The notes under the pieces: model-generated | Told to the model about the DNA's origin: nothing | Seen by the model: only the letters and a program-made list of their open reading frames with translations | Databases searched by the model: none | Translations under genes and position numbers: made by a program | Shown: piece after piece, positions 32,417 through 37,755 of the stretch | Layout of the letters: each line of letters begins with the position of its first letter | Position numbering within the stretch: the first letter of the stretch is position 1 | From: Gracilimonas mengyeensis | GTDB taxonomy: Bacteria; Bacteroidota; Rhodothermia; Balneolales; Balneolaceae | Length of the DNA stretch: 64,000 nt | Reading direction: 5' to 3' | NCBI RefSeq assembly: GCF_900182705.1 | Contig: NZ_FXTP01000006.1 | Span: 124,001 to 188,000 of the forward strand

Positions 32417-34117
32417 ATGCCCTTTGAGACTTTAGATTATCTTGTTGTTGCCGGATATGTTGTATTGATGATCGCCGTCGCCTGGGCGGCTAAAGTGCGA
32501 GGACAGGAATCCCTGGATGATTTTTTTGCCGGTGGCAAAAACCTGCCCTGGTGGCTGGTAGGCGTCTCCATGGTGGCTACCACTTTTGCTGCGGATACGC
32601 CATTGGCCATTACGGGACTGGTAGCTGAGCAAGGCATTGCCGGCAATTGGTTTTGGTGGAACTGGATGATTTCGGGGATCGTCACCGTATTTATCTATGC
32701 CAAACTCTGGAAACGTGCGGATGTGCTCACCGATGTAGAATTCATAGAACTCCGTTATGGAGGCAAACCGGCCAGCTTCCTGAGAGGCTTCCGGGCGTTG
32801 TATTTTGCCTTTCCGTTCAACTGTATTATAATGGGCTGGGTAACGGTTGGCATGGCCAAAATCCTCACAGTAGTAACCGGTGCCGACCAATGGATTGTTA
32901 TTTTGATTCTATACGGCTTGATTGCTCTCTACATTGCGATTTCCGGGTTATGGGGCGTCATTGTTACCGATTTCGTACAATTCATTTTAGCGATGATTGG
33001 AACCATTGCACTCGCTTATTTTGCAGTCGATCATATCGGCGGTTTAGCCGAACTCAAAACACAGCTAACCCAGGCGGTAGATTACGATGTGCTCAGTTTC
33101 AACCCTTTCACCAATCCCAAGATTGCCATTACCACGGCGCTTATCTGGTTGGGAATGAACTGGTGGGCGGCCTGGTATCCCGGGGCAGAGCCGGGCGGGG
33201 GTGGCTATATTGCCCAGCGTATGTTTTCTGCCAAAGACGAGAAAAATGCGGTGGGAGGTACCCTGCTTTTCAATATTTTGATGTATGCCGTACGTCCCTG
33301 GCCCTGGATCTTAGTTGCACTGGTTGCCATGGTGGTTTTTCCCAACCTCGAAGATCCAGAAACAGGCTACCCGCTGATGATGCTGGAGGTGCTCCCCGTC
33401 GGCTGGATGGGCTTGCTGATGGTGGCCTTTCTTTCGGCTTTCGTCTCGACCATTTCCACCCAGCTGAACTGGGGAACATCCTACGTAGTCAACGATTTCT
33501 ACAAGCGGTTTATGAAAACCCCGGAGGAGTTTGCATCCAAAGAGAAAGCCCAAAAGCATTACGTGTTTGTCTCCCGCATTGCCACCTTGCTGATGGCCGC
33601 ATTAGGCGTGGGTGTTTCCTATTTCTTTGACTCGGTTTCGGGGGGATGGGAATTTATTCTTTCCCTGAGCGCAGGTATTGGCGGCGTACTGTTGCTGCGC
33701 TGGTTCTGGTGGCGTATAAACGCGTGGAGTGAAATCACCGCCATGATTGCCGCCATGATTGGAGCTATTTTCTCCAACCAAATGGGCTACGATTTTGCTG
33801 CCAGCATGATCTTCACCACAACTTTTTCTACCATAGCCTGGTTGATAGCTACTTTCATCACCAAACCCGAATCCGAAGAGACCCTTCGGAAGTTCTACGC
33901 TAAAGTGCACCCAATGGGAAACTGGAAAAAATATTCGGATGGTATTCCGTCACCTGACGCGCTCTGGCCCTCACTCATCAACATCGCCATGTCGCTGCTG
34001 GCCATCTTCTTCTATCTCTACGGACTCGGGCAGATTTTCTTCTTCAACATCGGTACCGGTATTGGCTTTTTGGTGGGCGGCTCGATCTTTGTTTGGGCTG
34101 TGGTAAGGCGTATATGA
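32417..34117 (+). CDS. Sodium:solute symporter family protein
   Basis: The 566-residue protein has about 13-14 membrane helices and SSS-family traits: a SLDDFFAGGKNLPWWLVGVSMVATTFAADTP region near the N terminus, the ISGLWGVIVTDFVQF segment and STISTQLNWGTSYVVNDFYKRF. The family couples Na+ entry to uptake of sugars, amino acids or organic acids; the substrate is not predictable. It converges on the TPP-controlled operon with a 528-bp gap. Confidence 0.9.
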   Translation: MPFETLDYLVVAGYVVLMIAVAWAAKVRGQESLDDFFAGGKNLPWWLVGVSMVATTFAADTPLAITGLVAEQGIAGNWFWWNWMISGIVTVFIYAKLWKRADVLTDVEFIELRYGGKPASFLRGFRALYFAFPFNCIIMGWVTVGMAKILTVVTGADQWIVILILYGLIALYIAISGLWGVIVTDFVQFILAMIGTIALAYFAVDHIGGLAELKTQLTQAVDYDVLSFNPFTNPKIAITTALIWLGMNWWAAWYPGAEPGGGGYIAQRMFSAKDEKNAVGGTLLFNILMYAVRPWPWILVALVAMVVFPNLEDPETGYPLMMLEVLPVGWMGLLMVAFLSAFVSTISTQLNWGTSYVVNDFYKRFMKTPEEFASKEKAQKHYVFVSRIATLLMAALGVGVSYFFDSVSGGWEFILSLSAGIGGVLLLRWFWWRINAWSEITAMIAAMIGAIFSNQMGYDFAASMIFTTTFSTIAWLIATFITKPESEETLRKFYAKVHPMGNWKKYSDGIPSPDALWPSLINIAMSLLAIFFYLYGLGQIFFFNIGTGIGFLVGGSIFVWAVVRRI

Positions 34118-34645: not shown

Positions 34646-34981
34646 CTAACCCTCATCACCAGGCAACTCAGGCGCATCCAAAGCCTTCGGTCCGCTTGCT
34701 GCAAGCAGCTCTTCCTCTTTCAGCTCAAAGTTATTTTCACCCTCAAGGGCAGCAGGGGTAACGCCCCAGCGTTGCAAGGTGGGAGCTTCTATGGACTTAT
34801 CCCGGTACTCATCCAGCGTCATAATGGGTACACCTGAAATGACCGGGAAATACCGCCGGCACTCGGGACAAGTGAGCAGGGCTTCAATGATATCGCCGTC
34901 TTCATGTTTCACAAAAACCCGCATGTTCAGGTCGTGTTTGTCCATGGGGCAGCACAGTTTGTCGATAAGTGATGCTTTCAT
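34646..34981 (-). CDS. Trm112-like zinc-ribbon protein
   Basis: The 111-residue protein has the Trm112/UPF0434 pattern. It starts LIDKLCCPMDKHDL, then LLTCPECRRYFPVISGVPIM. One knuckle is intact (CPEC); in the first the second cysteine is replaced (CCPMD). A 40-residue acidic tail follows. Trm112 proteins activate SAM methyltransferases, which fits the methyltransferase encoded in the same operon. It is the last gene of the TPP-riboswitch operon, 8 bp after the ThiE-like gene. Confidence 0.8.
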   Translation of the reverse strand: MKASLIDKLCCPMDKHDLNMRVFVKHEDGDIIEALLTCPECRRYFPVISGVPIMTLDEYRDKSIEAPTLQRWGVTPAALEGENNFELKEEELLAASGPKALDAPELPGDEG

Positions 34982-34989
34982 AATTCAGT

Positions 34990-35655
34990 TCAGTTTAAAT
35001 TTTTTAAAGCTTGATGATAGTCGAGGCTGGCCTGGCGGGGATCGTCAGCGCTCAGGATGCCGGAGATTACAGCCACGCCTTCAATGTCGAGGTTCTCTAA
35101 TTTTGGCAGGTTTTCCGGGGTGATACCGCCTGAGACGAATAGCGGCTTCTCTGTAATTTCGCGTGCTTTCTGTACGGTATCAGGGCGGACAATCTCGCAG
35201 TCATCCACCGAACTGGAAGGAAACATTGCGCAAAACGAAAAGTAGTCGGCCCCCAAAGCTTCTCCGCGGCGAATAACCTGCAGATCATTTCCACAGGTAA
35301 TCCCAATTAAAAAATCCCGGTCAAGTTTTTGTCGAATTTCTTTCAGGTTGTCCGGGATTTTATCAAAATGAACTCCGTCCAGCTGGGTTTCAGCCAACAG
35401 CTCCCATTCATCGTTAATCAAAACGGGTACGTCGTAGGGTTTTGCAACCTCCAGTAACTGCTGCACCATTTTTTGTTTTTCTTTTGGGGTGATGTCATCC
35501 GGCCAGTTGTTCCAGATTTGCAGCACATCTACTGAGCCATCCAGGGCTTGCTTCAGTTTATGGAGTAACTCAGATGTATCCATAGCCGGGTTCAAAACTA
35601 AATACACGCCGCCGGTAATGGTTTTTTGTTGGGTTGATGACATAGCTACTTCCAT
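34990..35655 (-). CDS. ThiE/TenI-like protein, divergent active site
   Basis: A 221-residue TIM-barrel protein of the thiamin-phosphate synthase superfamily. Recognisable parts are VPVLINDEWELLAETQLDGVHF, GADYFSFCAMFPSSS and the phosphate-binding LFVSGGITPENLPKL. However the usual V-Q-L-R-x-K motif reads LQIWNNW, and the T-x-T-K phosphate motif reads SSSVD. Thus residues that bind pyrophosphate in ThiE are missing, and a different reaction is likely. Its start overlaps the PurM-like gene end by 10 nt. Thiamin context comes from the TPP riboswitch upstream. Confidence 0.8.
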   Translation of the reverse strand: MEVAMSSTQQKTITGGVYLVLNPAMDTSELLHKLKQALDGSVDVLQIWNNWPDDITPKEKQKMVQQLLEVAKPYDVPVLINDEWELLAETQLDGVHFDKIPDNLKEIRQKLDRDFLIGITCGNDLQVIRRGEALGADYFSFCAMFPSSSVDDCEIVRPDTVQKAREITEKPLFVSGGITPENLPKLENLDIEGVAVISGILSADDPRQASLDYHQALKNLN

Positions 35656-36710
35656 CCCGCATTTAACGCATTGAAAAAAGCATTCCAGTACGGATCATCC
35701 CCTTCAAATGAGATGGGATTTGAAGCTCCATCTTCGATGAGATTAAAGCCGTCCTCAGCGTCGCCCATAGTTCCTACCACAGCGGCAGGGATGGATTGCG
35801 CTTCTAAATGGCCAACAAGTTTATCTTCACAGCCGGCTTTAACCGCCATAATCATGGCACCTGCGCCTACACAAAAGCGATGATCAATTTCAAACAACTC
35901 GGCGATGCGTTTTGGAGCTTCGCCAACAGGCAGGGCATCGTTATTCACTGTAAAACCACAACCGGAGGCTTTCGCCATCTCAATGATGGCACCCAGCACG
36001 CCACCTTCGGTTACATCGTGCATAGCTTTAAGCTCGGTGTTTGGCTTTAGGATTTCGGAAGCAGAGAGAGCATCTTCCAGCACGGAAGTTCGGTAAAAGT
36101 TCTCGCAAGCCGTGTCATAGATTTCCTTACCCAGCTTGTTTTGTACCGTCTCGGGAAAACTCATGGCTAAGATGGCGGTCGAGTTCAGCGCCGTTTCTTT
36201 AGTTACAATGATCTTGTCGCCAGGCTCAGCTCCGTCACTGCTGATGATATCATCCAGCGGAGCGGTCAGAAACATGGTGCCGCCTCCGGGAATGGTGGAA
36301 TTCTGTCCGGGCACTTTGCCGGTGTGTCCGCCGGTAATGGCAATGCCGCGCTGTTCACAAAAGTGATGGATGTGATTCCAGTACTCCTCAAAGGTTTCCT
36401 GGCTCAGATCTGGCGAAAGATTTAACACAAACTGCACGAATTGTGGGGCAAAACCGGTAGTGGCCATATCATTCACCAGCAGCTGTACCGACAGCCAGGC
36501 CGATTCTTTCAATCCAAGATTGGGAATCAGCGAAAGCGGGTCGCTGGAAATAGCCAAACCCTGACCATTTCCGATGTCAATCACAGAAACATCAACCCCA
36601 AAAGCGGCGCCCTTTTTAACTTCGGGGCGTTTTTTGCCTGTTTTTGGGAGCAGGATATCCTTGAAAACCGAGTCCGTTATCTTGCCAAAATTGTTGTCAA
36701 AAGCACTCAT
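35646..36710 (-). CDS. AIR synthase-related (PurM/HypE/ThiL-fold) protein
   Basis: A 354-residue PurM-fold protein. Visible features are an N-terminal VDVSVIDIG strand, LAISSDPLSL, SVQLLVNDMATTGFAPQ (the ND-A-x-x-G motif) and ITGGHTG, followed by a C-terminal domain with AMHDVTEGGVLGAIIEMAKASGCG (ATP-binding glycine-rich). The superfamily includes ThiL, HypE and PurM, all ATP-using. Position after a TPP riboswitch and next to a ThiE-like gene suggests a thiamin-phosphate kinase or related step, but this is inference. It overlaps the methyltransferase gene by 4 nt. Confidence 0.85.
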   Translation of the reverse strand: MSAFDNNFGKITDSVFKDILLPKTGKKRPEVKKGAAFGVDVSVIDIGNGQGLAISSDPLSLIPNLGLKESAWLSVQLLVNDMATTGFAPQFVQFVLNLSPDLSQETFEEYWNHIHHFCEQRGIAITGGHTGKVPGQNSTIPGGGTMFLTAPLDDIISSDGAEPGDKIIVTKETALNSTAILAMSFPETVQNKLGKEIYDTACENFYRTSVLEDALSASEILKPNTELKAMHDVTEGGVLGAIIEMAKASGCGFTVNNDALPVGEAPKRIAELFEIDHRFCVGAGAMIMAVKAGCEDKLVGHLEAQSIPAAVVGTMGDAEDGFNLIEDGASNPISFEGDDPYWNAFFNALNAGWK

Positions 36711-37432
36711 TCTACATCCGTGAATTTAACATGTAAGGCAAAAAAGTCGCCGATGGGCAGTCCCCACTGTTGCACCGGAAACCATTTTGGCAAGCCGGTT
36801 GAAGTCCATTCAATTTTATACAGTCGGTCACCCAAAGCTTCGTGCAGCGTTTCAATCAGCTTGTTGGGCGTGTAAAAGTTGGCGGTCCGGTAATATTCAT
36901 TTTTACCAAATACCTGCTGTACCCGCCGGCGTATCAGCTTGGGAGAGTTCCGGTTCATAATGCCAAACAGTAACCCGTACCTGCTAACCCGGGCTGCCTC
37001 GCGGATTACTTTAATAGGATCTTTGTAGTACGCAAAAGTGGCAATGAAAGCGAGGGCATCAAAGGTGTTCTCCTTAAAAGGCATATGATGAGAATCGGCC
37101 AGCACCAGGTCGCCGTCAAACAAATGTACACCTTGCCCCAGCATGAACGGGGAGATGTCAGCGCCCATGGCTTCGATGCCAATTTCTTCCCACCAGCGGG
37201 TAAAGCGGGTGGTGCCACAGCCATATTCAAGCAAGGTTTCTACGCGGGGATCTTTTTTAATGAGCTTGGCCAGTATTTTTTTCTGCCAAACTTCTGCCCG
37301 CTTGTACGGACCTTCGTAATAGTCTTCATAAACGTCGGTATGTTCGCGATTAAAAAACCATTCCTCACGGTCTTGCCACTGATCCAGTTGTTTGGTTACA
37401 AGACTAAATTCCTTCTTTTCAATATTGCTCAT
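36707..37432 (-). CDS. Class I SAM-dependent methyltransferase
   Basis: A 241-residue methyltransferase with AdoMet motif I LLEYGCGTTRFTRWW, an acidic end of strand 2 (MGADISPF), LADSHHMPFKENTFDALAFI and a C-terminal substrate domain. It is the first gene of the TPP-riboswitch operon and is followed by the PurM-like, ThiE-like and Trm112-like genes. Trm112 is a known activator of methyltransferases, so a heterodimer is plausible. Substrate unknown; a thiamin-related or tRNA substrate are both open. Confidence 0.85.
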   Translation of the reverse strand: MSNIEKKEFSLVTKQLDQWQDREEWFFNREHTDVYEDYYEGPYKRAEVWQKKILAKLIKKDPRVETLLEYGCGTTRFTRWWEEIGIEAMGADISPFMLGQGVHLFDGDLVLADSHHMPFKENTFDALAFIATFAYYKDPIKVIREAARVSRYGLLFGIMNRNSPKLIRRRVQQVFGKNEYYRTANFYTPNKLIETLHEALGDRLYKIEWTSTGLPKWFPVQQWGLPIGDFFALHVKFTDVE

Positions 37433-37509
37433 GGAGTGCTGTTTTGGCGTTTTTTAAAAGGAGGGGAGATAAGCAGCGCAGAAAAACAGCTTCCTAAATA
37501 AATAGCAGC

Positions 37510-37590
37510 GGTGTAATCCCTACGCCGGTATTATCCGGATCAGGTCTGTGGGTATGATCTCAGCCACTCTAAAGGCGGCACCCCTTTCAC
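37510..37590 (-). ncRNA. TPP riboswitch (THI element)
   Basis: On the minus strand the conserved core is present in order: GGGGTGCC, then GGCTGAGAT, ACCC, GACCTGATCCGGATAATACC and GGCGTAGGGA. This is the thiamin pyrophosphate aptamer, with P2/P3 and P4/P5 helices. It ends about 80 nt before the methyltransferase start, so it should repress the whole operon (37432 to 34646) when TPP is plentiful. No clear terminator hairpin was seen in the leader; a CCCCTCC stretch lies between aptamer and start. The expression platform is unresolved. Confidence 0.97.
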
Positions 37591-37755
37591 GCAACTAAAA
37601 TAAGGTATTTTTAGCGGAGGATTAAATGGTAAGCGGTAAAACTTTTATATAATGCCTGCTGCTTAGTCTGTTACTAATCCGGGTACATTTATGGTGCAAG
37701 CTGATGAGTAATTCTTTATGCCTTTTATCACTGAAAACAAATGCCAATAATTTAA

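Follow-up and report, generated by a model that had tools for sequence, protein, structure and literature searches.

A four-gene cassette behind a TPP riboswitch in Gracilimonas mengyeensis and scattered other Bacteroidota as a candidate thiamin salvage module

In a 64-kb stretch of the Gracilimonas mengyeensis genome (contig NZ_FXTP01000006.1, positions 124,001 to 188,000; the whole stretch is called the window below), a thiamin pyrophosphate (TPP) riboswitch on the minus strand heads four tightly coupled genes. As listed in Table 1, these encode an S-adenosylmethionine (SAM) dependent methyltransferase (MT), a PurM-fold protein with AIRS domains, a ThiE-like protein and a Trm112-like protein. 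Taken together, they suggest an as yet undescribed recovery of vitamin B1 (thiamin) or its parts, and the set occurs mostly in species without known B1 synthesis. The arrangement had been described in a first-pass annotation of the DNA, and both the RF00059 score and Pfam, which agrees with all four labels, bear it out. The full-length aptamer is the sole Rfam match exceeding its gathering score (54.3 bits for RF00059) within the window. It lies on the same strand as the genes, 66 nt 5' of the MT start, and has the usual core, CUGAGA...ACCUGAUC..GGAUAAUACCGGCGUAGGGA. The presence of the riboswitch had been called correctly but its end had not, as the aptamer reaches 37595, 5 bases further than annotated.

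Table 1 Positions of the riboswitch and of the four cassette genes in the window
Feature	Position	Strand	Length	Match
TPP riboswitch aptamer (RF00059)	37499..37595	-		64.6 bits, model 1-105, E 2.2e-10
Gene 1, class I SAM methyltransferase (MT)	36707..37432	-	241 aa	Pfam Methyltransf_11 1.7e-14
Gene 2, PurM/HypE/SelD/ThiL-superfamily (AIRS/PurM-like) protein	35646..36710	-	354 aa	Pfam AIRS_C 2.8e-19, AIRS 2.1e-10
Gene 3, ThiE/TenI-fold (ThiE-like) protein	34990..35655	-	221 aa	Pfam TMP-TENI 2.2e-37
Gene 4, Trm112-like zinc-knuckle protein	34646..34981	-	111 aa	Pfam Trm112p 2.6e-07

The gene junctions are exactly as annotated before: the MT and AIRS genes overlap by 4 nt, the AIRS and ThiE-like genes by 10 nt (assuming the first ATG of the ThiE-like open reading frame), and the ThiE-like and Trm112-like genes are separated by a gap of 8 nt. 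Presumably a single transcript carries the whole module, which is passed on or exchanged in one piece, and low TPP would let the riboswitch permit its expression. A simple scan found no terminator between the aptamer and the MT gene, overall sites being no more than in shuffles, and the fold of the leader lacked significance (z -1.2). None of the four proteins reaches a named NCBIfam equivalog cut-off.

When a profile of the ThiE-like protein was run against 394 Bacteroidota genomes (a GTDB sample of 170 genera), cassette-type relatives were detected in 12 genomes belonging to 8 genera. Together with G011 from a relatives search and Mucilaginibacter sp. FT3.2, they make up the 14 loci compared here; other phyla were covered only through one close-relative scan and plasmid searches. 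The order MT, AIRS, ThiE-like, Trm112-like was kept in all 14 loci, which represent several Bacteroidota families, and a TPP riboswitch was located 5' of the MT gene in every one. It exceeds the gathering score in 13 of them, the G102 riboswitch giving 47.8 bits. In G011 the cassette is divided between contigs, and the contig with the 5' end of MT also bears the riboswitch. The conserved co-occurrence behind TPP riboswitches, for which the first-pass annotation had suggested a survey of related genomes, held in 14 of 14 loci. Because the whole unit with its riboswitch recurs in 13 further genomes, its composition is more than chance. The flanking genes are mostly unrelated from locus to locus, although some synteny is common to two genera (g6 and g3); therefore, the four-gene order is maintained by selection and not by shared synteny alone.

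The cassette is under purifying selection: the ratio of nonsynonymous to synonymous substitution rates (dN/dS) was 0.01-0.16 where dS could be estimated, and was lowest for MT, about 0.01 in close pairs. Meanwhile, the distances of the four protein families correlate with each other (r 0.77-0.88). Its presence is patchy; among ten genomes of the same genus, only the one from which the window comes carries it. Plasmid or viral carriage was rejected, since no cassette was seen in the PLSDB searches or in the close-relative scan of IMG/VR. Searches of an open-access library gave no description of this gene set.

The thiamin gene content of the 14 carriers was compared with that of 23 non-carrier relatives (37 genomes in all). 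The survey covered ThiC, ThiD, ThiM, ThiE, ThiL and thiamin pyrophosphokinase (TPK). ThiC was found in Mucilaginibacter only, leaving 13 of the 14 carriers without it, and ThiM in none of the 37 genomes, carriers and non-carriers alike. Full-length ThiD is present in two carriers (Mucilaginibacter and G273) and in the non-carrier G008. Canonical ThiE occurs in a single carrier, again Mucilaginibacter, and in no non-carrier; besides its cassette, this strain carries a thiC operon that follows a riboswitch and also includes TenI-like, ThiE and ThiG-like genes. ThiL scores above its cut-off in 37 of 37 genomes. TPK is present in 35 of them, including 12 carriers and this genome among those, and the idea that the cassette is the sole means of using imported thiamin was rejected on this ground. 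The first-pass annotation had reasoned that its proposal would fall if canonical ThiL and ThiE occurred elsewhere and the operon were not thiamin-regulated, or if the four genes were not conserved together in relatives; the genome does contain ThiL, it does not contain ThiE, and the operon is conserved.

Non-carriers mostly have one TPP riboswitch, with extra matches in G006 and G014, and at every locus whose adjoining DNA was inspected it stands in front of a TonB receptor gene; carriers possess the TonB-receptor TPP riboswitch plus the cassette. Since the non-carriers are without ThiE and mostly have the TonB-receptor riboswitch as their only one, the cassette represents an added function, predicted to be under TPP control. 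It would supplement cells that are without the tested biosynthetic and precursor-salvage genes yet retain ThiL. Predicted thiamin auxotrophs of the family keep canonical ThiL and TPK, and the non-carriers have no known step that makes thiamin phosphate (TMP). This genome likewise has a second TPP riboswitch (G000:C3:35413-35506; L010 11414-11507, minus strand), immediately ahead of the gene for a TonB-dependent receptor (L010 9083-11377, minus strand) that is likely a thiamin receptor of the OMthi kind.

The ThiE-like protein shows full-length homology to ThiE (PDB 2TPS/1G67; TIGR00693) and falls below the family cut-off, with 115.2 bits against the required 145.1. It was aligned with the Bacillus subtilis ThiE by profile search and with the canonical ThiE of Mucilaginibacter. 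We take R59, K61, D93, D112 and K159 of the B. subtilis enzyme to be the Mg-pyrophosphate binders, following the structural work of 1999-2001. In the 14 ThiE-like sequences, R59 is replaced by W48 and D112 mostly by P101, the positions of K61 (50) and D93 (82) are variable, and no conserved Lys stands in for K159. On the pyrimidine side, Q46, N81, H96 and T120 are invariant (Q57, N92, H107 and S130 in B. subtilis, the last being a Ser to Thr change), and so is the thiazole-phosphate site, with G176-G177 (the GG loop, GGI) and S198 (S206). Four residues that set the group apart from ThiE are invariant as well, namely W48 and W84, which would stand in for the pyrophosphate site, and C142 and C153. 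The alignments are most simply read as a re-tooled active site that would preserve both ring pockets and replace the pyrophosphate site. The earlier suggestion of a diverged synthase, taken as one of the usual type, is not supported, since the Mg-pyrophosphate residues are lost.

A related explanation is that the ThiE-like protein is still a working thiamin-phosphate synthase acting on hydroxymethylpyrimidine pyrophosphate (HMP-PP), that the PurM-fold protein replaces ThiD/ThiM by phosphorylating hydroxymethylpyrimidine (HMP), its phosphate (HMP-P) or hydroxyethylthiazole (HET), and that the methyltransferase pair is accessory or regulatory. It would account for the fact that 13 of 14 carriers have no other member of the ThiE family, for the TMP-TENI match (2.2e-37) and for the absence of ThiD/ThiM from most carriers, and the PurM fold does include a known phosphate kinase, ThiL. 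We nevertheless consider it unlikely, because the Mg-pyrophosphate residues are lost in 14 of 14 sequences, TIGR00693 is not reached, and the best conserved protein, the methyltransferase, is left unexplained. Moreover, Mucilaginibacter has the cassette alongside canonical ThiE and ThiD, and as the cassette coexists there with a complete pathway, it is unlikely to be merely a substitute ThiE.

The PurM-fold protein has both AIRS domains and the conserved D57, N80-D81, GGH and D-x-T-x-GG motifs in common with ThiL, HypE, SelD and PurM. It differs from them in staying far under every equivalog cut-off: it scored 64.5 bits with the ThiL model TIGR01379 (cut-off 184) and 67.2 bits with the HypE model TIGR02124 (cut-off 251.6). 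Its nearest PDB relative is HypE (2e-17), and its C-terminus (...NALNAGWK) is without the C-terminal Cys tail of HypE. Judged by its sequence, it is a member of this ATP-dependent enzyme superfamily that appears orthologous to no named one. The first-pass annotation had proposed that it could be an alternative thiamin-phosphate kinase. As a replacement for a missing ThiL it was rejected on the TIGR01379 score and on the canonical ThiL encoded separately in this genome (G000:C2:145992-146942, 243 bits) and in the 36 others.

Distant relatives of the PurM-fold protein (31-32% identity) were found on three Haloarcula plasmids (L020, L164, L165), where they are annotated as 'AIR synthase family' and are HypE-like. 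Their genes adjoin, in divergent orientation, two annotated thiamine genes, one for a thiamine-binding protein of the MTH1187 type and one for the substrate-binding component of a thiamine ABC transporter. This context is a riboswitch-independent link to thiamin, from a single genus, and suggests that the archaeal HypE-like family has a thiamin role too.

The methyltransferase is the best conserved of the four proteins, with 67-82% identity across families and 115 invariant residues. Its profile matches Bud23 (7wtw_q, 4.5e-6) and 6F5Z_A (0.0012). In the PDB, the Trm112-like profile matches 6ZXW_H and 6F5Z_C best; 6F5Z_C and 6F5Z_A belong to one crystal. We take 6F5Z to be the Haloferax volcanii Trm112-methyltransferase complex. 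The Trm112-like protein scored 30.9 bits with PF03966, above the cut-off of 22, and 56.6 bits with the archaeal Trm112 model NF038101, below the cut-off of 77. It has the zinc signature C-P-x-D-x23-C-x2-C (C11-P-M-D14 and C38-x2-C41), in which C11, P12, D14, C38 and C41 are invariant in 14 sequences, and which fits the archaeal Trm112 consensus [C/D]Px[C/D]x19-36Cx2C (PMC5372719). Because the MT profile matches known Trm112-partner enzymes, the two proteins likely form a two-subunit methyltransferase. Like the Trm112-methyltransferase holoenzymes (Bud23-Trm112; PDB 6F5Z), the cassette brings a Trm112-like zinc knuckle and a class I methyltransferase together in one gene set; unlike them, its pair is tied to the regulon of a small-molecule vitamin. 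As the first-pass annotation stated, the standard thiamin pathway indeed offers no place for a methyltransferase and a Trm112-like partner.

The characterised Trm112 partners work on the translation machinery, and the function of bacterial Trm112 is reported as unknown (PMC5372719). Thus the pair might modify a macromolecule (tRNA, rRNA or protein), only the other two genes being thiamin-related; the profile match to Bud23, an rRNA methyltransferase, would agree with this. All four genes are, however, invariably linked behind a TPP riboswitch, and there is no reason for TPP control of RNA modification, so we regard this as the least probable of the explanations considered.

An uncharacterised system for thiamin salvage or modification, for which the first-pass annotation had named it a candidate, is a fair description of the cassette. 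We tentatively favour the view, at somewhat short of an even chance, that it is a salvage module, repressed by TPP, which supplies TMP or thiamin independently of HMP-PP; its chemistry can be outlined as follows. The MT and the Trm112-like protein would act as a two-subunit methyltransferase, and the PurM/HypE-fold protein would provide an ATP-dependent activation, either a phosphorylation or a dehydration; together they may prepare the pyrimidine or the thiazole moiety. The ThiE-fold protein, with an aromatic site in place of the Mg-pyrophosphate one, could then attach the pyrimidylmethyl group to thiazole phosphate, or exchange it there, with something other than pyrophosphate as the leaving group. 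Whether TMP or thiamin, the product would be converted to TPP by the retained ThiL or TPK. A weakly supported idea is that methylation of a modified pyrimidine, such as a thioether adduct, might provide the ThiE-like enzyme with a good leaving group. The fully specified version, a new TMP route in which a salvaged pyrimidine is prepared by a Trm112-activated methyltransferase and coupled to thiazole phosphate by the re-tooled ThiE-fold enzyme, with no need of HMP-PP and with the ATP-driven step falling to the PurM-fold protein, is improbable. If true, it would, to our knowledge, be the first case of a Trm112 holoenzyme serving a small-molecule pathway, and B1 would be made by a route that bypasses the ThiC/ThiD/ThiM/ThiE scheme.

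Several points count against salvage. No known salvage step accounts for the role of the methyltransferase. Judged by its genes, the Mucilaginibacter carrier is fully prototrophic and does not strictly require salvage, and with TPK in most carriers imported thiamin is already usable. The roles of the ThiE residues are those in the literature on the B. subtilis enzyme and not ones derived anew from coordinates. The AlphaFold models of MT (from a 13-sequence alignment) and of the ThiE-like protein (from a single sequence) both had a mean predicted local distance difference test score (pLDDT) of about 45, too poor to use.

Occurrence in an apparent prototroph as well as in auxotrophs would also fit a repair or detoxification module that acts on damaged thiamin, on antivitamins of thiamin or on the pyrimidines of either, altering or recycling what it recognises, the need rising as TPP becomes scarce. 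The patchy distribution (12 of 394 genomes of the phylum) and a ThiE-like pocket whose new Trp and Cys suit an altered ligand are in line with such a function. Repression by the riboswitch at high TPP suits supply better, and the neighbours of the cassette include no recognisable gene of a repair system; the explanation is also unlikely.

Bacimethrin antivitamin clusters (PMC12345177) resemble the cassette in having a methyltransferase adjoining thiamin-type genes. The cassette may likewise make a methylated thiamin analogue, secreted or intracellular, that serves in competition or replaces the cofactor when thiamin is limiting, and its patchy spread would be compatible with that. Nevertheless, thymidylate synthase, glycosyltransferase, thiaminase and ABC exporter genes, unlike in those clusters, are neither in the cassette nor recurring beside it, and most carriers are without any route to HMP, which makes an analogue pathway very unlikely. 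The cassette also is without ThiD2 and has a TPP riboswitch and a ThiE-fold protein instead, and its gene content does not match a bacimethrin-type cluster (PMC12345177).

The TPP regulons of Bacteroidetes set out in PMC5613172 contain thi biosynthesis (thiSEGCHF-tenI), OMthi and pnuT-tnr3, and TPP-controlled genes are classed as biosynthesis or transport in PMC3766115. The cassette shares the riboswitch class and the phylum with these operons, and this genome's TonB receptor gene behind its other TPP riboswitch is similar to OMthi. The cassette differs from the operons given in PMC5613172 in being without the usual biosynthetic genes and in holding a methyltransferase, a HypE/ThiL-fold protein, an altered ThiE-fold protein and a Trm112-like protein in their stead.

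Bacteria without ThiC and ThiE are scored as simple thiamin auxotrophs, and the cassette would alter the predicted use of B1 precursors in microbial communities. The probable partnership of the methyltransferase with the Trm112-like protein is the most interesting part. It would assign a function outside translation to a bacterial pair of this kind. A changed leaving group in a ThiE-fold enzyme would add new enzymology to a well-studied pathway. Because the cassette is small, self-contained and present in many genomes, the question is testable.

A sodium:solute symporter gene (SSF; 32417-34117, plus strand) converges on the cassette. It was rejected as a partner, since none lies beside the other cassettes.

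Some weaker or isolated features were observed in the relatives. Two neighbouring TPP-riboswitch-like matches in G006 (G006:C4:1534146-1534238 and 1534576-1534670; L144), with 54.4 and 42.5 bits, have no recognisable thiamin gene downstream. A 41-bit TPP-riboswitch match in G339 (G339:C4:241796; L146) is directly before a gene for a small PnuC/PnuT-like transporter, and one of 34.5 bits in G411 (G411:C3:275037; L145) precedes a TonB receptor gene and then a PnuC/PnuT-like gene; both are probably real riboswitches under the gathering score. The full-length ThiD proteins of G273 (G273:C1:1315418-1316152; L153) and G008 (G008:C14:13897-14631) occur without ThiC or canonical ThiE, and possibly serve HMP or pyridoxal salvage.

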